Notes under the pieces: model-generated
Database searches by the model: none
What the model was told of the DNA's origin: nothing
Seen by the model: only the letters and a program-made list of their open reading frames with translations
Shown: positions 3 through 9,806 of the stretch, one piece after another
Layout of the letters: each line of letters begins with the position of its first letter
Numbering within the stretch: position 1 is the stretch's first letter
Assembly (NCBI RefSeq): GCF_003177035.1
Contig: NZ_CP029488.1
Location: 2,170,001 to 2,234,000 of the forward strand
Reading direction: 5' to 3'
DNA length: 64,000 bases
Origin: Salinisphaera sp. LB1
GTDB lineage: Bacteria > Pseudomonadota > Gammaproteobacteria > Nevskiales > Salinisphaeraceae
Position numbers and translations under genes: made by a program

Positions 3-536
3 TGGGTGCTCGACCCGGTGGCCGTCGGGCTTTCCGACTACCGGACTGAGGCCATCCACAAGCTGCTGACCCTCGGCCCGACCGTGATCAAGTCCAACGC
101 CAGCGAAACGCTGGCGCTGGCGCGCACCGGTACGAGCGGGCGCGCCGGGGACAGCCGGCATGCCGTGGATGACGCAATCGACGCGGCGCGGCGGATCGCA
201 CGGCAGTACGGCTGCGTGGTGGCCGTGACCGGCGAGCGCGATCTGATCACCGACGGCGCCCGGGTCGTTCGTCTGCACAACGGCGATCCCATGATGGGCC
301 GGATGATCGGGTCGGGCTGCATGCTGTCGTCGGTGCTGGCCTGTTTCCTGGCCGTGGCGGATGATCCGTTCGAGGCCGCGCTGGCGGGCCTGGCGCATTT
401 CGCGGTGGCCGGCGAGATGGCGGCCGCCCACGCCGGCGGCCCGGGCACGCTCAAGCCCTTGTTGATCGACGCGCTATACAAGCTGGATGCAGCGGACTTA
501 TCGGCGCGGTTGAAGGTGAGCGAGTTGACGCCTTGA
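3..536 (+). CDS. thiM: Hydroxyethylthiazole kinase, C-terminal part (truncated by window edge)
   Basis: ThiM phosphorylates 4-methyl-5-(2-hydroxyethyl)thiazole with ATP in the thiamine salvage pathway, in the cytoplasm. The reading frame is already open at base 3 (W-V-L-D-P-V-A-V-G, a conserved ThiM stretch), so the N-terminal third lies outside the window. Visible are VIKSNASE, the AVTGERD segment, and the GSGCMLSSV motif that forms the ATP/anion-hole region of the ribokinase-like fold. About 178 residues remain, against a usual length near 265. It ends 29 bp before the stop of the convergent ligase gene. Thiamine partners (thiD, thiE) would be expected upstream, outside the window. Confidence 0.88.
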   Translation, partial: WVLDPVAVGLSDYRTEAIHKLLTLGPTVIKSNASETLALARTGTSGRAGDSRHAVDDAIDAARRIARQYGCVVAVTGERDLITDGARVVRLHNGDPMMGRMIGSGCMLSSVLACFLAVADDPFEAALAGLAHFAVAGEMAAAHAGGPGTLKPLLIDALYKLDAADLSARLKVSELTP

Positions 537-565
537 GGGGCCTTGGAGGCTATCCCAACAGGCTG

Positions 566-1714
566 TCAATCCCAGTCCGCGGGCTTTCCCATCGGGTTTT
601 GCGGCAGGGTAGGGCCGAAGCGAAAGCGCGTGGGGCGTTCGGCGGGCGGCAGGCGGCTGGCCACGAACGGGCGCAGTCGGTGTTCGAGGTCGGCTTGGTC
701 TTGGTCGTCGACCGGGACAATGAACGCCTTCAGGCGGCCGTTGTCGCCCAGCCGCACCGCTGCCTCGGCCACGCCGTCGCATTCGGTGAGCACGGCGGCG
801 ATACGGTCGGGATAGACGTTTACTCCGCCGACCTGCACCGCATGGTCCCGGCGGCCCATGAGCTCGATTTGACGTGCGCCGCTGGGCCGGATTTGGTCGG
901 GCAGACGCGTGGTCCGGCCGGCGCGATCGATGAGCGTCGATGGCGCATGGGGCGCGAGCCGCCAGCGCGGTAGCAGGGTGTATTCGATACCGGGGATCTC
1001 GCGCAGGCCGATCGCGCTGGTTTCCGAACTGCCATAGACATCGACCAGGCGCGCCAGCCCGGTGGCGAGCACGGCTTCGCCCAGCGCGTTGGCAAGCGGC
1101 CCGCCGGAACTGATCCCGGTGACATGATCGGGCCACTGTTGGCGCAGGCGTGCCAGCGCGGCCCAGTGATCGGGAACGCCCACCACCAGATCGCCCGCTC
1201 TCGGCGCCGGCATGCCGGGCACGGTGCCATCGACAACCGGCACATCGAGCACCGCCGGCAGCAGGGCGGTCCACACGAGCCCGTAGAGATGGGTCGCCGG
1301 AACCAGCGCGATGACCCGCTGCGTTTCGGCAAACCGGTGGGCGAACTCGTGGGCTTCTTCGAGCAGGTCGGCTGTGGCATGCGAATGGCTCTGCGGCACG
1401 CCGGTCGAGCCGGAGGTATGAACCGTCAGCCGTTGGATCCGCTGGGCCGCGATGCGGTCGGCCCATTCGGCCACCGTGGCCGTCGTCTCCGGGGCGAACG
1501 CCACATCGTCCAGCGTGAAAACTTCGCTGAGCGCGGCGGCTACGCCCATTCTTTCCAGAGAGTCCAGGGCCAGCGGGGTGGCCGTTTCATGCGGGGCATA
1601 GGCGTTGGTCGTGCGCTGGCCGATGTCTTCGCCGCGCAGGCGCTGGAGTTCGCCGGCGATCACGGCGGCGGTGATCCGACGGATGGCTGCCCGTGGCAAG
1701 TCGCTCCGGGTCAC
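566..1714 (-). CDS. Short AMP-forming acyl/aryl-CoA ligase, probable p-coumarate:CoA ligase for the PYP chromophore
   Basis: This 382-residue member of the ANL adenylating family should activate a carboxylic acid to AMP and then a CoA thioester. Visible motifs are the P-loop TSGSTGVPQ (residues 100-108), the A5 motif YGSSETSAIG (227-236), a GRRDHAVQVGG hinge region and NPMGKP with the C-terminal catalytic lysine (about 377). It is clearly shorter than plant-type 4CL enzymes (over 500 residues). The start is a GTG whose GTGA overlaps the stop of the upstream cyclase, so the two genes are translationally coupled. Two genes upstream lies a photoactive yellow protein, whose p-coumaroyl chromophore is known to be supplied by such a ligase (pCL); this context is the main reason for the substrate call. 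The N-terminal 70 residues contain LDSLERM, reminiscent of an acyl-carrier DSL motif. Substrate is inferred, not shown. Confidence 0.75.
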   Translation of the reverse strand: MTRSDLPRAAIRRITAAVIAGELQRLRGEDIGQRTTNAYAPHETATPLALDSLERMGVAAALSEVFTLDDVAFAPETTATVAEWADRIAAQRIQRLTVHTSGSTGVPQSHSHATADLLEEAHEFAHRFAETQRVIALVPATHLYGLVWTALLPAVLDVPVVDGTVPGMPAPRAGDLVVGVPDHWAALARLRQQWPDHVTGISSGGPLANALGEAVLATGLARLVDVYGSSETSAIGLREIPGIEYTLLPRWRLAPHAPSTLIDRAGRTTRLPDQIRPSGARQIELMGRRDHAVQVGGVNVYPDRIAAVLTECDGVAEAAVRLGDNGRLKAFIVPVDDQDQADLEHRLRPFVASRLPPAERPTRFRFGPTLPQNPMGKPADWD

Positions 1715-2988
1715 GCCGGCGCGGGGGCGACACGATTGCGCCCGGCGTTTTTCGCCTCGTACAGACGGCGATCGGCGATTGCGATCAGATCGTCGGTGGA
1801 GCCGTCGGTTTCGCGCATTTCCGAGCAGCCCAGACTGGCGGTGACGTTGACCTGGCCACGGGGCACCGCGATCTGGCGTTCGGCGATTTTGCGACGCAGT
1901 GTTTCGGCCAGCTCGATTGCTGCACTCAACGGGTATTCGGGCGCCAGCAGGGCGAATTCTTCTCCGCTCAGGCGCGCGAAGACTGCCCTCGCCGGCGTGC
2001 AGTCGGCACCGATTTGCGCCACCTGTTTAAGCGCGGTGTCCCCGGCCGGATGGCCGTGCATGTCGTTCAGCGACTTGAAATCGTCCAGGTCGAGGATAAT
2101 CAGCGATAACGGCCGTCGGCGTGTCAGGCATCGCGTGTGTTCGAGCTTCAACACCTTCTGGAACTGCATCCGGTTGACCGCACCGGTCAGATAATCCCGT
2201 GTCAGAAGTTCGATCAGGTCGTTGGTTTTTTTTGCCGGTTCGGGCACGTCCCGCAGCACCATCGAGAAGGTGGGGGCGTCGTCGTCGTCTTGTTCGGCCC
2301 GCGCCACCAGCAGGCGCTGGCACCAGTAGCGTTCGCCATTGGCCCGTTTTTCCCACCCTTCGAACAGATGCCAGCCATCGCGACTGGCAAGCGCAAGTTG
2401 GTCGGCTATGGAGAACGGAATCTGCGCTTCGTCGTCGGTTTCGGACAGAAACGTATCCACGCATTGGCCGACGACTTGTTCGGCGGCATAGCCAGTCTGC
2501 CGGACGAAGGAGGGGTTGGCTGAAAGCACCGTGCCGTCGCCCGCGACCGTCAGCAGCGCATGATCGTTGACCTCGTCGATCAAGGCAGAGAACCAGGTAT
2601 CGGCCTGACGCATCCGTTGTTCCTGGGTCACCTGTTCGCTGATGTCGCTCAAGGTCGCGATCAACTGGTTCGGCCCGCGCTTGACCAGCGAGCAGGCCAG
2701 AACCGTGGGGCGCCCGTCCCGGCTTTTCTGGCCCAGATCCACGACGACCCGGTGTCCGTCGCAGATCGTGCCGTGGGGCTCGGCGAAACCGTCGGCAAAG
2801 TTGCGCAGTTCCGGCGCGAATTTTTCCATTGCGGCGAAGAAGTTCTCGACGCCCTGCGCTCCGGCCAGTGGCAGCAGATGCATCATCGCATGCGGATTGA
2901 TCAACCCGATGTCGCCCCGTTCATCGAGCTCGATCAGCCCGAAGGGGCATGCATACATGAAGCTTAGAAGATCATCTTCATCCGCCAT
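1711..2988 (-). CDS. PAS-PAS-GGDEF diguanylate cyclase of the PYP operon
   Basis: Soluble c-di-GMP synthase candidate of 425 residues. There are no membrane segments. An N-terminal PAS-like region begins at FMYACPFGLIELDERG, a second PAS follows (from about residue 130, with GDGTVLSANPSFVRQTGY), and a GGDEF domain occupies the last 160 residues (LDLDDFKSLNDMHGH, then the signature as SGEEF). The first glycine of GGEEF is serine, and the position five residues upstream lacks an RxxD inhibitory site, so product feedback is probably absent. The ATG at 2988 was chosen because GGAGG lies 9 bases upstream; an in-frame TTG at 3018 would add ten residues overlapping pyp. It sits 16 bp after the PYP gene and overlaps the ligase by 4 bp, so PYP is a likely upstream light input. 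That partnership is inferred. Confidence 0.88.
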   Translation of the reverse strand: MADEDDLLSFMYACPFGLIELDERGDIGLINPHAMMHLLPLAGAQGVENFFAAMEKFAPELRNFADGFAEPHGTICDGHRVVVDLGQKSRDGRPTVLACSLVKRGPNQLIATLSDISEQVTQEQRMRQADTWFSALIDEVNDHALLTVAGDGTVLSANPSFVRQTGYAAEQVVGQCVDTFLSETDDEAQIPFSIADQLALASRDGWHLFEGWEKRANGERYWCQRLLVARAEQDDDDAPTFSMVLRDVPEPAKKTNDLIELLTRDYLTGAVNRMQFQKVLKLEHTRCLTRRRPLSLIILDLDDFKSLNDMHGHPAGDTALKQVAQIGADCTPARAVFARLSGEEFALLAPEYPLSAAIELAETLRRKIAERQIAVPRGQVNVTASLGCSEMRETDGSTDDLIAIADRRLYEAKNAGRNRVAPAPA

Positions 2989-3004
2989 GGCCACCGGCCT
3001 CCGA

Positions 3005-3373
3005 TCAGCGCTCGACAAGAATATAGCGTCGCACTACATCGTGGGCCTGCAGCAGTCGCAGTCGCACGCGGGTGGGGCGCATGCGCAGGGTCAGCACGAA
3101 CGGTACGATCTCGTCGAGGTCGGCCTCGTCCTCGAAACGCTGGGCGACCAGGAAATTGTTCATGCATTGGCCGATGGTGGAAAAAAACGGCACACCCAGC
3201 ACATGAGCGGGGTCGACACCGGACATGCGAGCCTCGGTGGCATTGTAGACATCGGCGCAGGTATCCGGGCGAAGACCGATCACGCCGAAATCGAGCGTGT
3301 CGCGGTCCTCCGGCGCCATGTTTTCGAGATCGATCAGCCGGACGGTTTCGAATGTCGGCTTGGTGTCGCGCAT
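3005..3373 (-). CDS. pyp: Photoactive yellow protein (blue-light photoreceptor)
   Basis: A 122-residue single PAS-fold protein that aligns end to end with photoactive yellow protein of Halorhodospira halophila (125 residues). From memory of that sequence, the chromophore-site residues map as follows: Cys70 (in STIGQCMNN) to Cys69, which carries thioester-linked p-coumaric acid; Tyr43 to Tyr42 and Glu47 to Glu46, which hydrogen-bond the phenolate; Met98 to Met100, involved in recovery. Ser51 replaces Thr50 and Val53 replaces Arg52. The YNATEARMSG and RMRPTRVRL stretches are the most PYP-like. The ATG has GGAGG 7 bases upstream. It is the first gene of an operon with a diguanylate cyclase and a p-coumarate-CoA-ligase-like gene, supporting a holoprotein that signals to c-di-GMP. 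No tyrosine ammonia-lyase gene is present in the window. Confidence 0.88.
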   Translation of the reverse strand: MRDTKPTFETVRLIDLENMAPEDRDTLDFGVIGLRPDTCADVYNATEARMSGVDPAHVLGVPFFSTIGQCMNNFLVAQRFEDEADLDEIVPFVLTLRMRPTRVRLRLLQAHDVVRRYILVER

Positions 3374-3887
3374 GTACGCGCCTCCATGAAATCAGAATGC
3401 GGGAACCACGAGTTTAAGGAACGCCGGGTTCGTGGCTCGTCAGATCCCGCTGCACGATGCCGAGTCGTTGGCGGGCCAGCCACAGTCACAGTCCCGCGTT
3501 TAATGAATCAAAAACGTCGGACGACGATATGGGATAACCCGATAGCGCACAACTATTAATTATCTGCGAAAACGCGGTGTTCGACGTACCGGGCCGGATG
3601 TACGGGGTCAGGTGGCGGGGCGCGCTGTCGAGGTTCGGCCAACTGCTCGGGAGGGTCTGGCCCGTTGGGCCTATGTCAGCCGGCGGCGCACTTAAAAAAA
3701 CGACGGATGCGGCTGCGGATGGCATCGGTCGGGGGCCTGAAGCCGGGCCGCTCCGTGCCCCGGGTGCCCTGTGGCGGCCATTCACCGTGCCTGGCCCGGC
3801 ACGCACAATCGCTGGAAATCCGTGACGTGAACTGACATCACAGGACACGGACAGGGCTCGAATCAGCGGCCTGGCCGTCATGCGCGG
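3374..3887. other. Intergenic region upstream of the PYP operon
   Basis: No credible gene is seen in these 514 bases; the short open frames have no recognisable domain. It should hold the promoter of the PYP operon on the minus strand. One weak sigma70-like candidate reads TTGTGC, 17 bases, TATCGT on the minus strand around 3530-3555. No clear operator or terminator was found. Confidence 0.4.
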
Positions 3888-4817
3888 TCATGACGATGCG
3901 CTGCCGCCGGACGATTGCCAGGGGCTGATGATCGGTACGGCCTGCGCACTCCGCCCCAATAGCGGGAGGCCATACATCGCTTCCAGTGTACGCAGCATGC
4001 TGTAGTGGTTGACCGGACGCTTGACTTGTCCCTTGCGCACATGCGCGCCGGCGATGATCACCGGAATATGGTTGTGATGAAGATAGTTGTCCTCGTCCCA
4101 AGTCACGATCAGCAGGCTGTTGTGATGCCGTGCCCACTGGACGTAGCCGCCCAGATGCCGCTTCAGCCAGCGGTCGCCCTGGGCGATGCTGGCGCTGTGC
4201 ATGTCGTGGTCGAGGTCGGGGATGACGAACGACACCGTGGGCAGCTTGTTGAAGTCAGACGGAAAATCCCGAAACGGGCGGTTCTGGGCGGCGTGTACGT
4301 TAACTCCCTGCCAGTTGACGGCCGGGTTGTGTTTGCGTGCATAAAGCCCGTGGCGGCAGCCGGTGTACCCCGTCTTCGGCATGGACTGGGCATAGGTGGC
4401 GAAGCTCAACCCGGCATCACGCAGTGTGGTGGCCAGGTTGCGGCTGGTGAACCGGTGCGGACAGCTATCCAGCAGCACGTCCTGGGTGGTGCCAGAGAAC
4501 AGTGCGAGGTAATTGGGCTCGCTCGGATGGGTGACGCCGTAGGCATGGGTGAGCGTGGCGCCGGAGGCGGCAAGCCGATTCAGAAACGGCGCCTGGGGAT
4601 TGCCCAGAATCTGGGAATAGGCCTTGTTTTCTTCGATGACGATTACGACATGAGCCGGTCGCGGCAGTGTCCCCTGCGGCAGTCGCGTATGCGCCTGCGA
4701 GCTGCCGAACGCCGGCGGCACCCGGCTGGCGAACATGCAACCCGCCAGGCTGACGGTCAGCGCGGTTATCAGCGCGAGCCGGCGCAGGCGGTGACCGAGG
4801 GGCTGCTGTGGTTTCAT
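3888..4817 (-). CDS. Secreted phosphoesterase lipoprotein (AcpA/PLC-like phosphoesterase family)
   Basis: Alkaline-phosphatase-fold phosphoesterase (acid phosphatase/phospholipase C-like family) of about 309 residues. The N-terminus has a basic stretch, a hydrophobic segment and an LAGC lipobox, so it is probably an exported lipoprotein. Motifs in order are VVIVIEENKAY (metal-ligand Glu-Asn), THPSEPNYLALFSG (nucleophile region), VSFVIPDLDHDMHS and LLIVTWDEDN (second metal site). The start at 4817 was chosen because it begins the signal peptide directly; the longer open frame upstream would run back into the LpxR-like gene and lacks a signal sequence. It follows that gene by about 106 bp on the same strand. 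Substrate is unknown; phosphate scavenging or phospholipid/phosphomonoester hydrolysis is plausible. Confidence 0.8.
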   Translation of the reverse strand: MKPQQPLGHRLRRLALITALTVSLAGCMFASRVPPAFGSSQAHTRLPQGTLPRPAHVVIVIEENKAYSQILGNPQAPFLNRLAASGATLTHAYGVTHPSEPNYLALFSGTTQDVLLDSCPHRFTSRNLATTLRDAGLSFATYAQSMPKTGYTGCRHGLYARKHNPAVNWQGVNVHAAQNRPFRDFPSDFNKLPTVSFVIPDLDHDMHSASIAQGDRWLKRHLGGYVQWARHHNSLLIVTWDEDNYLHHNHIPVIIAGAHVRKGQVKRPVNHYSMLRTLEAMYGLPLLGRSAQAVPIISPWQSSGGSASS

Positions 4818-4923
4818 GCCGGCCCCGCGTTGCCGCCGCGGCGGCGTATTGAATCGAGTCGATACACGTGCATTGATCGCCCTCGTTTGGTCATGGCGCG
4901 AGATGAACCGGCATCGCGCCACA

Positions 4924-5964
4924 TCAGTTGAAACGGTAATCGAACCAGACGGCGCCGAAGTTGTTGTGGGCATCGCTGGCCGGCGGCAGGTTGTCCGTAT
5001 CCACTGTATTGGTCGTCATCCACATGTCGAAATGCACGCCCCAGCGCGGGCGCACATAGTTGACGCCCGCGATCAACTGGGCCACGAACGGCCTCATGTG
5101 CAGCGTGTTCCGTTGGGTCCAGGGATTGTCGTTGCGAATGAGATTGCCCTGGCGTTCCATCGAACGTCCCACGCCGGTACCGCGCACGGCGACGGTGGCA
5201 TAAAAATAGCCGCGATCCGTCGGTGTCTGGGTGGCATCGTAGTTGACACCGCGCCCGAGCGGGTCGGGCAGGGTGGCGAAACCGGGCGGCAATTGCCCGA
5301 TGCGGGCGATCAGCCCGGTCTGGCCGTAGGTGAAATAATTGCCGAGCGCGGCATCCAGGCTCGATGCGATATCGAAATGCGGCGCACGCCAGATCTTGTG
5401 CTGGAACGTGTAGTACAGATTGATCACCGGCTCGTTGTCGAGCTGGTTGTTCCAGCCATGCGGCGGCGTGCTCATGATGCTGTGGATGGCGGTTTGCACC
5501 TGCTTGCCCCCAGCCAATGGCCCGACCAGCCCGAGCATCAGCTCCGCCCCGTACAGATTGCGATCGTTGAATGCGATGAAGGTGTTGCCCCAGCCGAGCA
5601 GGCCCATGTACGGGAAGTCGTTGGTGATCAGCCGGTGCGTGCCGAGATGGGTAGGGGTGTCCTGGACCTGCCCGAGCGTCCAGCTCTCGCGATAGCCCAG
5701 CTGCGGGCCTGTCGGCAGCACCCATCGCGCCAGCGACTTGCCAAAGGCCGGGGTGCCATGGGTCTGGCTCAGCCGGCTCGCGATGGCCGAATGCATGCTC
5801 ACGCCGCCGCCGCCCGTGTACTGATTATCGGAAAGAAATAGTTTGTCGTCCTGGAAAGAGAAGGTCCAGGTGACCGGGCCGTGCGGGCGTTGGGCCAATG
5901 CCAGCGGGCTCAGGCCGAGAAGCGGTGGCAGCCCGAACAACAGCCAGCGCAGCGTGCGGCGCAT
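4924..5964 (-). CDS. LpxR-like lipid A deacylase family outer-membrane protein (DUF2219)
   Basis: Predicted outer-membrane beta-barrel of the LpxR family, which removes the 3'-acyloxyacyl chain of lipid A. Family signatures are FSFQDDKLFLSDNQYTGG near the mature N-terminus (the usual ENDxxxxTDxxYTNG stretch), TNDFPYMGLLGWG and HGWNNQLDNEP, and it ends with a Tyr-Arg-Phe-Asn strand typical of barrels. The Asn-Asp pair of LpxR reads Asp-Asp here, so activity is not certain. The ATG at 5964 starts a good signal peptide (MRRTLRWLLFGL to LALAQ); an ATG at 6036 would add 24 Arg-rich residues. Neither has a convincing ribosome site. The neighbouring phosphoesterase suggests an envelope-modification pair. 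Confidence 0.78.
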   Translation of the reverse strand: MRRTLRWLLFGLPPLLGLSPLALAQRPHGPVTWTFSFQDDKLFLSDNQYTGGGGVSMHSAIASRLSQTHGTPAFGKSLARWVLPTGPQLGYRESWTLGQVQDTPTHLGTHRLITNDFPYMGLLGWGNTFIAFNDRNLYGAELMLGLVGPLAGGKQVQTAIHSIMSTPPHGWNNQLDNEPVINLYYTFQHKIWRAPHFDIASSLDAALGNYFTYGQTGLIARIGQLPPGFATLPDPLGRGVNYDATQTPTDRGYFYATVAVRGTGVGRSMERQGNLIRNDNPWTQRNTLHMRPFVAQLIAGVNYVRPRWGVHFDMWMTTNTVDTDNLPPASDAHNNFGAVWFDYRFN

Positions 5965-6778: not shown

Positions 6779-7792
6779 ATGTCGAATCAAGCGATTGTCG
6801 TCGGTGCGGGCAGTGGTTACGACCGGGTGCGTCGTGAGCAGCGCGATGCGCCGGACCCGGGGCCCGGTGAGATCACCGTTCGGCTGAAGGCGAACTCACT
6901 GAATTTCCATGACTATGCCGTGGTGACTGGTCTGTGGGGCGGCGTGCCGGAAGACCGGATTCCCATGGCCGATGGCGCCGGCGACGTGGAAGCCGTTGGG
7001 GCCGGCGTGACCGAGTTCGCCGTGGGCGACTCTGTGGTCAGCACTTTTTTCCCGACGTGGCTGGATGGCGAGGCCGAGGTCGAAGGCTTCGATCAGGTGC
7101 CCGGAGACGGTATCGACGGTTACGCCCGCGAGCGCGTGACCCGGTCGGCCAACGCATTCACGCATGCCCCGGCCAACTACACGGCAGCCGAAGCCTCGAC
7201 CTTGACCACGGCCGGCCTGACCGCCTGGCGGGCGTTGATGGAAGACGGGGCGCTGCAGCCGGGCGAGACCGTACTCATCCAGGGTACCGGCGGGGTTTCG
7301 ATCTTTGCGCTCCAGTTCGCGAAGCGCTGCGGCGCCACCGTGATCGCGACCTCTTCGCGCAACGACAAGCTGGAACGTCTGCGGGACCTGGGCGCCGATC
7401 ATCTGATCAATTACAAGGAAGACAGTAACTGGGGCCAGACCGCACGCGCGCTCAGCGGCGGCCGCGGGGTCGATCATGTGATCGAAGTCGGCGGGCCGGA
7501 TACGCTGGAGCAATCGATGAACGCCGTTCGCGTCGGCGGCCATATTGCCGTCATCGGCGTGCTAACCGGCGTGACCGGCGAAGTCTCGCTCATGCCGATG
7601 CTGGCCAAGCAGATCCGTCTTCAGGGCGTGCTGGTCGGCAACCGGCGTCAACAGCAGGACATGGTCCGGGCGATCGAGGCCAACGATATTCATCCGGTCA
7701 TCGACCAGCGGTTCCCGCTGAATGAACTGGCGGATGCGTTCCGCTATCAGGAAACCAACCAGCACATTGGCAAGATCTGCCTCGACATCTGA
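6779..7792 (+). CDS. Zinc-independent medium-chain dehydrogenase/reductase (NAD(P)-dependent)
   Basis: A 337-residue MDR-superfamily oxidoreductase. The N-terminal GroES-like domain contains NSLNFHDYAVVTG, and the Rossmann domain contains VLIQGTGGVSIFALQFAKRC and DHVIEVGG. The cysteine/histidine ligands of catalytic and structural zinc are missing, so it belongs with quinone-oxidoreductase-like or zinc-free alcohol dehydrogenase-like members. An AAGGAG precedes the ATG by 8 bases. It probably forms a regulatory unit with the ArsR gene just upstream. A decayed copy of its middle portion lies at about 9575-9806. Substrate is unknown; an aldehyde, enone or quinone is possible. Confidence 0.85.
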   Translation: MSNQAIVVGAGSGYDRVRREQRDAPDPGPGEITVRLKANSLNFHDYAVVTGLWGGVPEDRIPMADGAGDVEAVGAGVTEFAVGDSVVSTFFPTWLDGEAEVEGFDQVPGDGIDGYARERVTRSANAFTHAPANYTAAEASTLTTAGLTAWRALMEDGALQPGETVLIQGTGGVSIFALQFAKRCGATVIATSSRNDKLERLRDLGADHLINYKEDSNWGQTARALSGGRGVDHVIEVGGPDTLEQSMNAVRVGGHIAVIGVLTGVTGEVSLMPMLAKQIRLQGVLVGNRRQQQDMVRAIEANDIHPVIDQRFPLNELADAFRYQETNQHIGKICLDI

Positions 7793-8056
7793 ATGTGTCG
7801 CCTCGGGCGGCTTCGAGGCGTTGGCGCGGATGTGAAGGGTTCGGCCGGGCGACAGGCAGAGTCCAGCGGCTTGCTGGCGGCCTGCCCGGTCGCCGTGCAG
7901 CCGTCGGTGCGGGCTGGCCATGGATTGCTGCGCGGGTCGGTTCGAATGGATCCGGGAATCCTCGTTATGCATAGTTGCATTCGGCACATGATTCAGGGGC
8001 GGTCATGGCCCTGCCATTACGGCGTGTCCGGCGTCCCGGGGCAAAAAAGTCGCCGA

Positions 8057-9409
8057 TCAGCGCAACGGCTCGCGGCTGCGGTCTTGCATGAACCACAAGG
8101 CGCCGGCCGATACCAGCGCGGCAAGGGCCAGATACGCCCCGGGCGCGGCGTCGAAACCGGTGAACGAAATCAGCCAGGTGGCGATCATGGGGGCTGTGCC
8201 GCCAGCCACGCCGAGGCCCAGATTATAGGCCAGCGAATAGCCGGTGAGACGGTCCCGTACCGGGAACAGTTCTACCAGCATGGCCGGTGCCGAGCCGAGC
8301 GGTATGGCGATGAGCAGTGCCAGCAGAAACTGGCAGATGATGAGATTGACCCAGCCGCCCGCGGCGAACCCAACCAGGACCCCACCCGCGGCGGCCATGG
8401 CCAGAAAGGCGAGGATTAGCAGCGAGCGACGGCGAATCACATGGTCGGATAGCCAGCCGCACAGCGGGATGATCGGCATGGCCAGCGCAATGCCGATCGA
8501 GTTGATGGTCAGCGCGGTGCCGTCGCTCACCGAGCCGATCTCGCTGGCGAACGTGGGCAGATAGACCAGCGGAATATAGAAGGCGACCCCGTAGCCCGAC
8601 GCGAAGATGATGGCCAGGATTGTCTCGCGCCGGTTCTGGGTGAGGGCCTCGTGCAGCGGGGAATCGTCGGCATGCTGTTTTTCATGATGCGCCATGTGCG
8701 GCGTACCGCCGAGCTTGCGCACATACAGATACGCCGCGCCGCCGAACACGCCGCCGAGCAGGAACGGTATGCGCCAGCCCCAGGCATGCAGCAGATCCGA
8801 CGGCAAAAGGGTGCTGACTCCGGCGGCCAGCCCGGAGCCGACCAACGTCCCCACGAGACTGCCGAAGTTGGCCCAGCTCCCGGACAGGCCGCGCTTATGC
8901 AACGGTGATGTCTCCACCATATAGGTCACCGATCCGCTGAACTCGCCACCCACGGATAACCCCTGGAGCAGACGGACCGCGATCAGCAGTACTGCCGCCC
9001 AGAATCCAATCTGATGGGTCGTGGGCAACGCTCCCAGCAGAAAAGTGGCGAGCCCCATGGTGATGATCGAGAGCCGCAACACCTTGGCGCGGCCGTAGCG
9101 GTCGCCAATATAGCCGAACACCACGCCGCCGAGTGGGCGCATGAAAAAACCGACGGCGAACACGCCGAAGGTGGCGATGAGCGAGCCCAGGTGGCTGTCG
9201 GACGGAAAGAACAGCCCCGAGAGCACGGGCGCGAAAAAACCATAGAGCGCGAAGTCGTACCACTCCATGATGTTGCCGATCGTGCCGCCGATGATGGTTT
9301 TCGGCGTATGGCGGTGGCCGAAATAGGGTCGGGAGTACGATTTACCGCGTTCGACCGGTGCTGGGCCGGTGGGCGTTGACGCAGTGCTCTCGGCGTAATT
9401 GGGTTCCAT
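8057..9409 (-). CDS. MFS transporter of the metabolite:H+ symporter (MHS) type
   Basis: A 450-residue inner-membrane carrier with twelve predicted helices. IGGTIGNIMEWYDFALYGFF in helix 1 is the hallmark of the MHS group (ProP, ShiA, KgtP and citrate carriers). The MFS signature between helices 2 and 3 reads GYIGDRYGRAKVL, and RLLQGLSVGGEFSGS lies in helix 5. Members import organic acids or compatible solutes with protons. There is no diagnostic neighbour, so the substrate is open. The next gene on this strand upstream is metY, separated by the decayed oxidoreductase copy, so it is probably a monocistronic unit. Confidence 0.85.
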   Translation of the reverse strand: MEPNYAESTASTPTGPAPVERGKSYSRPYFGHRHTPKTIIGGTIGNIMEWYDFALYGFFAPVLSGLFFPSDSHLGSLIATFGVFAVGFFMRPLGGVVFGYIGDRYGRAKVLRLSIITMGLATFLLGALPTTHQIGFWAAVLLIAVRLLQGLSVGGEFSGSVTYMVETSPLHKRGLSGSWANFGSLVGTLVGSGLAAGVSTLLPSDLLHAWGWRIPFLLGGVFGGAAYLYVRKLGGTPHMAHHEKQHADDSPLHEALTQNRRETILAIIFASGYGVAFYIPLVYLPTFASEIGSVSDGTALTINSIGIALAMPIIPLCGWLSDHVIRRRSLLILAFLAMAAAGGVLVGFAAGGWVNLIICQFLLALLIAIPLGSAPAMLVELFPVRDRLTGYSLAYNLGLGVAGGTAPMIATWLISFTGFDAAPGAYLALAALVSAGALWFMQDRSREPLR

Positions 9410-9574
9410 GACGCGCCAACAGTCCTCGCGATCATCGGTGACTGGCCCGGTCGGTGCCTAGCGTGTGACCGTGCCGCTGGCCCCGGGCAAGTCGTGGCAA
9501 CTCCGCAGATAGCATAAGCGTGGGGCCCGCCTTGTCTTTTGATATGGATCAAACGGGCCGTTTCGGCGCAGGCT

Positions 9575-9806
9575 TGTGCCTGCAGTCGGGCGAGACCGTA
9601 CTCGTCCAGGAGGGCCCCGGCGGGGTCTTCGTCTTTGCGCTTCAGTTCGCCAAGCGCTGCGGCGCGACCGTGATCGCCGCCTCCTCGCGCAACGACAAGC
9701 TGGAGCGCCTGCGGGATCGGCGCCGATCATCTGATCGATTACGGGGAAAATGGCAACTGGGGCCAGAACCACACGCGCGCTCAGCGGCGGCCCCGATATC
9801 GACAGC
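9575..9806 (+). pseudogene. Decayed partial copy of the MDR oxidoreductase gene
   Basis: These roughly 230 bases are closely similar to 7249-7478 of the intact oxidoreductase gene. The translated piece reads ETVLVQEGPGGVFVFALQF, then AKRCGATVIAASSRNDKLE, before a frame change near 9719 scrambles it. The copy lacks both ends, has a one-base deletion and several substitutions, and ends near a GC-rich hairpin. It is most simply a remnant of a duplication (or of a recombined paralogue) separated from the intact copy by the MFS gene. It has no plausible start or function. Confidence 0.75.

Follow-up and report, generated by a model that had tools for sequence, protein, structure and literature searches.

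A photoactive yellow protein operon of Salinisphaera sp. LB1 and a PAS domain linked to clade C photoactive yellow proteins

Three genes and their products

The window considered here is a 64,000-nucleotide stretch of DNA from Salinisphaera sp. LB1 (contig NZ_CP029488.1, positions 2,170,001 to 2,234,000), whose genome is a single contig of 4,141,708 bases. Close to its first letter are three tightly packed minus-strand genes for a photoactive yellow protein (PYP), a PAS-PAS-GGDEF protein predicted to make cyclic di-GMP (c-di-GMP), and a short AMP-forming ligase (Table 1). An earlier note on this DNA had described them in these terms, with a 16-bp gap, a 4-bp overlap, and a PYP carrying the chromophore cysteine, and coordinates, family matches, and residues all bear the description out. 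The first PAS domain of the cyclase, named N-PAS, is the main subject of this text, as it accompanies PYPs of the same type in many genomes and is a candidate partner for them.

The 4-bp overlap makes translational coupling of cyclase and ligase likely. Upstream, 514 bases separate the PYP start from the end of the nearest long open reading frame (ORF) on the same strand (3888-4973), and on the far side the ORF at 3-536 is on the opposite strand, so the three genes appear to form a separate unit. A scan of positions 400-4000 for sigma-70 promoters gave no matches, with 0.6 expected. The earlier note had proposed a search for the same three-gene order in other genomes, and this search succeeded: a PYP of the same type is present in 4 of the 17 genomes of the family, and the order PYP-cyclase-ligase is identical in all four, which argues that the arrangement is not due to chance.

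Table 1. Coordinates of the genes, domains, and junctions of the operon in the window
Feature	Position	Strand	Remarks
PYP gene, clade C type, 122 aa	3005..3373	minus	Cys70 codon at 3164-3166
PAS-PAS-GGDEF diguanylate cyclase gene (predicted), 425 aa	1711..2988	minus	
Short AMP-forming acyl-CoA ligase gene, 382 aa, GTG start	566..1714	minus	best match is the p-coumarate--CoA ligase of PYP systems
PYP-cyclase gap, 16 bp	2989..3004	minus	GGAGG at 2998-3002, 9 bases ahead of the cyclase ATG, by eye
Overlap of cyclase stop and ligase GTG start, 4 bp	1711..1714	minus	
N-PAS, first cyclase PAS, residues 1-130	2599..2988	minus	PYP-linked domain
Second cyclase PAS, about residues 133-250	2239..2592	minus	
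GGDEF domain, residues 264-419	1732..2199	minus	SGEEF motif; RxxD inhibitory site absent

The PYP carries Tyr43, Glu47, Cys70, and Met98 at the pocket positions of Tyr42, Glu46, Cys69, and Met100. Its fold model (predicted local distance difference test score, pLDDT, 89.6) is closest to the PDB entry 2d02, with a template modeling (TM) score of 0.87, and the 39 top PDB matches, 2d02 included, are all PYP or PYP-derived and come ahead of any other. A profile of 14 PYP relatives searched against the PDB found 33 distinct sequences, all of them PYP, the PYP domain of Ppr, or PYP-derived (FAST, nanoFAST), with a best E value of 2.6e-20. The score with the NCBIfam PYP family TIGR02373 is 49.4 bits, under the cut-off of 143.05, and a Pfam search gave no match at E up to 1. 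The TIGRFAM PYP model was built on just four PYP seeds (PMC9664959), which suggests that TIGR02373 is a narrow model.

The clade C type was not part of the earlier note. According to Xing, Gumerov, and Zhulin (2022; PMC9664959), clade C PYPs have lost Phe92, Phe96, and Trp119 but kept Met100, and no member is characterized. By these residue traits the window PYP fits clade C, with Val90, Leu94, and Tyr117 at the diagnostic sites and Met98 kept; at other loci the label stands for a score with the profile of these PYP rows, not for a placement in a tree. Among 87 clade C PYPs, the pocket is conserved at the Tyr42 position in 86 and at the Glu46, Cys69, and Met100 positions in all 87, while all 87 have Leu in place of Phe96 and 86 have Tyr or Phe in place of Trp119. 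Markers of the clade are the blocks CMNNF.VAQRFEDE and LTLRMRP, and the stretches around PYP residues 70-83 and 94-100 are invariant within it. In the PLSDB plasmid records H1, H8, H9, H10, and H12, clade C PYPs are annotated as “phosphonate transporter,” a misnomer also noted in PMC9664959.

In the cyclase, Pfam detects a single PAS domain at residues 144-248, which is the second one, and misses the N-PAS. The model of residues 1-130 (pLDDT 87.5) has PAS-domain structures among its top PDB matches, and by this model these residues are a second domain of PAS fold; a PDB search with the N-PAS sequence gave weak matches, the best being to WalK (E 0.042). No membrane segment was seen by eye in the protein. 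The GGDEF domain matches TIGR00254 with 136.5 bits. Its signature is SGEEF in the window, GGEEF in 85 of 87 aligned cyclases, and GGDEF in 1, and the remaining signature positions, which are substrate or metal residues, are conserved in 98-100% of them. The site of product inhibition, RxxD, reads PARA in the window, and at these positions 50 of the 87 cyclases have the R and 52 the D. By its residues, the domain qualifies as a predicted diguanylate cyclase.

The ligase is matched best by TIGR02372 (“4-coumarate--CoA ligase”), with 283.6 bits over residues 7-377; this is below the cut-off of 334.7 and 223 bits ahead of the next family. An alignment of 69 ligases, which takes in one 254-residue fragment and the ligases beside other PYPs (L019, L037), has the catalytic lysine in 67 (Lys377 in the window). 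At position 108 in the P-loop motif the window has Gln, compared with Lys in 38, Arg in 18, and Gln in 5 of the 69. Within the family, ligase matches above 260 bits occur in 4 of the 17 genomes, the same four that have the clade C PYP; a match of 93 bits was found in a fifth, and none of the 17 reaches the cut-off.

A PAS domain beside clade C PYPs

The linkage of the N-PAS to these PYPs was followed through a scan of 84,980 species genomes with an alignment of clade C PYPs, in which the best 80 of 267 relatives were kept. With the window and 10 of 13 PYP-matching plasmid records, these 80 genome loci make up a set of 91 clade C PYP genes; the three records outside the set are H6 and H9, which score close to H5 and H8, and H13, which is the same as locus L037 and has another type of PYP. 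An N-PAS domain lies downstream of the PYP in 90 of the 91, at a distance of at most 60 nt in 85. Among these 90 copies are two broken ones: in L081 the N-PAS and GGDEF are in separate frames, and in L090 the N-PAS is interrupted. At this last locus (L090:7390-9833) the cyclase N-PAS is split by about 2.1 kb directly after the PYP.

A scan with a clade C PYP as query biases the set of loci towards PYP, hence counter-searches were made with the N-PAS itself. In PLSDB, 13 records matched the PYP query; 11 of them also matched the N-PAS query, which found no others, and by position each of these N-PAS matches adjoins a PYP match. In 30 of the genomes with a clade C PYP, the N-PAS query gave 38 matches, not one of them away from the clade C PYP loci. 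Two of these matches are the halves of the interrupted L090 domain, and the farthest, on a second N-PAS protein, is 2.7 kb off. Among 398 genomes from across the phylum, with at most 10 or 11 candidates scored per genome, the N-PAS scores above 100 bits in two, and a clade C PYP scores above 100 bits in the same two. Elsewhere among the 398, the N-PAS query gave three weak matches of 28-33 bits; these resemble ordinary PAS domains and have no PYP within their 3.3-kb loci. The PYP query likewise gave three weak matches, of 42-62 bits, in yet other genomes, where the PYP is a domain of a longer protein and the locus lacks an N-PAS. A single-sequence N-PAS query over 369 genomes of the class matched only the window’s own genome.

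Other PYPs served as controls, and none of eight loci with them (L019, L037, L141-L146) has an N-PAS. One of the eight, L142, has a PAS-GGDEF gene nearby, again with no N-PAS. The canonical-type PYPs located inside clade C loci (L033, L035, L087) were kept out of the controls.

The N-PAS is also found on proteins with outputs other than a plain cyclase, and all of these are at PYP loci. For example, in eight loci (L034 at 7733-9619, L104, L108, L110, L111, L113, L115, and L116) a second N-PAS is on a GGDEF-EAL protein. In these eight, that protein lies downstream of the PYP-cyclase pair, so the same domain fronts both a cyclase and what may be a phosphodiesterase. At L107, the PYP is followed by an N-PAS-GGDEF-EAL protein in place of the plain cyclase. 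In Lichenicoccus (L131, 5833-7385), the N-PAS heads a 374-residue PAS protein beside the clade C PYP, with no GGDEF by Pfam; the C-terminal part of this protein has no Pfam match and could be an undescribed output domain. A strong separate EAL match is present in 50 of the 90 loci. A domain that moved between outputs and yet stayed beside PYP would have the pattern expected of a PYP docking domain; a sensor of a free ligand, by contrast, should also turn up at loci that lack a PYP. The N-PAS is thus likely to be the docking partner of the PYP, going by these sequence comparisons.

The proposed switch and its alternatives

We infer that the operon encodes a blue-light to c-di-GMP switch divided between two proteins, the PYP and the cyclase, and give this a probability of roughly 0.68. 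In the proposed mechanism, the ligase would activate p-coumarate, from the surroundings or from a route without an ammonia-lyase, as its coenzyme A (CoA) ester, and p-coumaroyl-CoA would load Cys70 of the PYP. Blue light would then isomerize the chromophore and alter the surface of the PYP, and the lit PYP would alter its contact with the N-PAS of the neighboring cyclase. From there the change would reach the GGDEF dimer by way of the second PAS. Action of the PYP in trans on the cyclase had been suggested in the earlier note, and the N-PAS linkage lends it indirect support. A broader form of the idea, to which we give somewhat better than even odds, is that the N-PAS is a dedicated receiver for clade C PYPs that is plugged into cyclase, GGDEF-EAL, and no-GGDEF outputs, such that one sensor could drive several c-di-GMP enzymes in trans.

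The supply of the chromophore touches on another part of the earlier note, which had called the operon a self-contained module. That photoreceptor, chromophore activator, and c-di-GMP output are encoded together stands; “self-contained” does not, as a search for an aromatic ammonia-lyase (PF00221) gave no match in the source genome while it was positive in 5 of 14 control genomes. With no such enzyme in the genome, the cell must import p-coumarate or produce it by another route. The lyase is likewise missing from the three congeners with the operon (0 of 4 with the source genome); in the family it occurs in 1 of 17 genomes, one with no PYP match at E up to 0.001. These Salinisphaera may therefore read light through the PYP operon only where p-coumarate is available. 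The source genome has a second PYP-ligase pair as well, absent from the earlier note. This PYP, at about G000:C1:1406774-1408394 (L019:6774-8394), is canonical, with the classical residues and 202.6 bits with TIGR02373, above the cut-off, and its gene overlaps that of a second short ligase. Its 15-kb locus has no GGDEF profile match. More than one PYP is reported in 16% of PYP genomes (PMC12826048). The source genome has 30 GGDEF matches above the Pfam cut-off. Just outside the window, some 0.3 kb from its start, a GGDEF gene without an N-PAS (G000:C1:2168438-2169688, L018:8439-9689) is encoded on the same strand as the operon.

Several observations weigh against a PYP-to-N-PAS switch. The set of loci is a selection by score from the collection scan, as given above. 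The one clade C PYP with no N-PAS nearby, in L036 (5989-6375), has a CheB-CheR-PAS-histidine kinase-receiver hybrid and a BLUF gene as its neighbors. In every one of the 87 clade C PYPs, Ala or Ser replaces Thr50 and Leu, Ile, or Val replaces Arg52, so that the photochemistry may be different. No ligase was seen in 22 of the 90 loci, compared with 58 in which it comes directly after the cyclase and 10 in which it is elsewhere in the locus. No ORF fusing a clade C PYP with an N-PAS was seen in the loci examined. A mirror-tree comparison (87 of 90 pairs, with L081, L090, and one row removed by a length filter) gave distance correlations with PYP of 0.844 for the N-PAS, 0.859 for the second PAS, and 0.856 for GGDEF, and partial correlations of 0.19, 0.20, and 0.30, and so no specific signal of co-evolution. 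It singles out no contact because the whole unit is inherited together, and as support for a contact between PYP and N-PAS it was dropped.

The lack of a specific mirror-tree signal would fit a PYP and a cyclase that are simply co-transcribed, the cyclase sensing a ligand of its own through the N-PAS or the second PAS and the PYP having other targets. Ligand binding is common among PAS domains, which also speaks for this explanation. It is nevertheless quite unlikely, since the sets searched gave no strong N-PAS match other than at clade C PYP loci and the N-PAS is swapped among outputs that remain beside PYP. Another explanation changes the role of the chromophore: the PYP would be loaded only with external p-coumarate, formation of the holo-PYP would set the cyclase, and light would be a second input, making the operon an AND gate for a phenolic compound and light. 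The absence of PF00221 from all four operon-carrying genomes, each of which has the ligase, favors it, and so does the plant or lichen source named for 6 of the 13 plasmid records with a PYP match. On the other hand, photocycle pocket residues are conserved in nearly all of the 87 relatives, and one relative, L035, has a lyase within the same cluster, making such a gate unlikely.

The ligase could also be a general acyl- or aryl-CoA ligase rather than one dedicated to p-coumarate, as might be read from the score under the curated TIGR02372 cut-off and from the Gln at position 108 of the P-loop. Against this, the ligase of the canonical PYP in the same genome (268.4 bits) is below the cut-off too, along with every match in the family; TIGR02372 also covers nearly the whole protein with its wide lead, and the catalytic lysine is kept. 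A general ligase is very improbable for these reasons. With a switch divided between PYP and cyclase preferred, the question of the partner is turned by the N-PAS linkage into a small binding test, and the pair offers a two-part light tool for c-di-GMP. How single-domain PYPs transfer their signal is an open question (PMC9664959, PMC12826048), and the N-PAS receiver, if true, would name the missing direct partner for a whole clade of them.

Comparison with known PYP systems

The earlier interpretation was mostly sound, and the idea of such an operon is already in print in outline (PMC9664959, PMC12826048). Clade C PYPs often adjoin GGDEF and EAL genes, with light control of c-di-GMP proposed, and a p-coumarate--CoA ligase (pCL) is beside at least 30% of functional PYPs (PMC9664959). 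The window shares with the clade C PYPs of that paper the residue traits, the misnomer, and the adjacent cyclase; it differs in that adjacency is described there as “often” and in that the first PAS of the cyclase is not singled out as PYP-linked in the parts of the paper cited. Literature searches on PYP with cyclases, on binding partners, on Salinisphaera, and on Idiomarina found, within the titles, abstracts, and passages covered, no report of the N-PAS as PYP-linked. Searches on Ramlibacter and on light-controlled motility, again within the parts of the sources covered, found nothing on the PYP-cyclase-ligase arrangement, and the term “PAS-GGDEF” was not found in the main text of PMC12826048.

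In Halorhodospira halophila, the operon is pyp-pcl-tal (PMC12826048). Photoreceptor and chromophore-activating ligase are in one operon in both organisms, but the Halorhodospira operon has a tyrosine ammonia-lyase (TAL) and no cyclase, whereas the operon here has a cyclase and its genome has no lyase match (PF00221). Rhodobacter capsulatus reportedly has a PYP and a PYP-binding protein and, to judge from the title of a study, would likewise have a single-domain PYP with a protein partner.

Idiomarina loihiensis is a closer parallel, in that its single-domain PYP is thought to act in trans on a neighboring GGDEF protein and blue light lowers biofilm (PMC9664959, PMC12826048). A single-domain PYP and a neighboring cyclase are shared with the window, but the Idiomarina PYP belongs to clade A and the window PYP is of the clade C type. 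Among 113 predicted pyp operons, 29 have GGDEF and 42 have pCL, and a role in c-di-GMP signaling and biofilm was inferred (Dohmen et al. 2025, PMC12826048). The c-di-GMP inference is the same here, applied to a single clade in which an N-PAS protein follows 90 of 91 PYPs and the ligase is directly next in 58 of 90. What is new beside these systems is the N-PAS linkage, which offers a concrete candidate partner domain for a PYP clade, in a type of operon that was already known.

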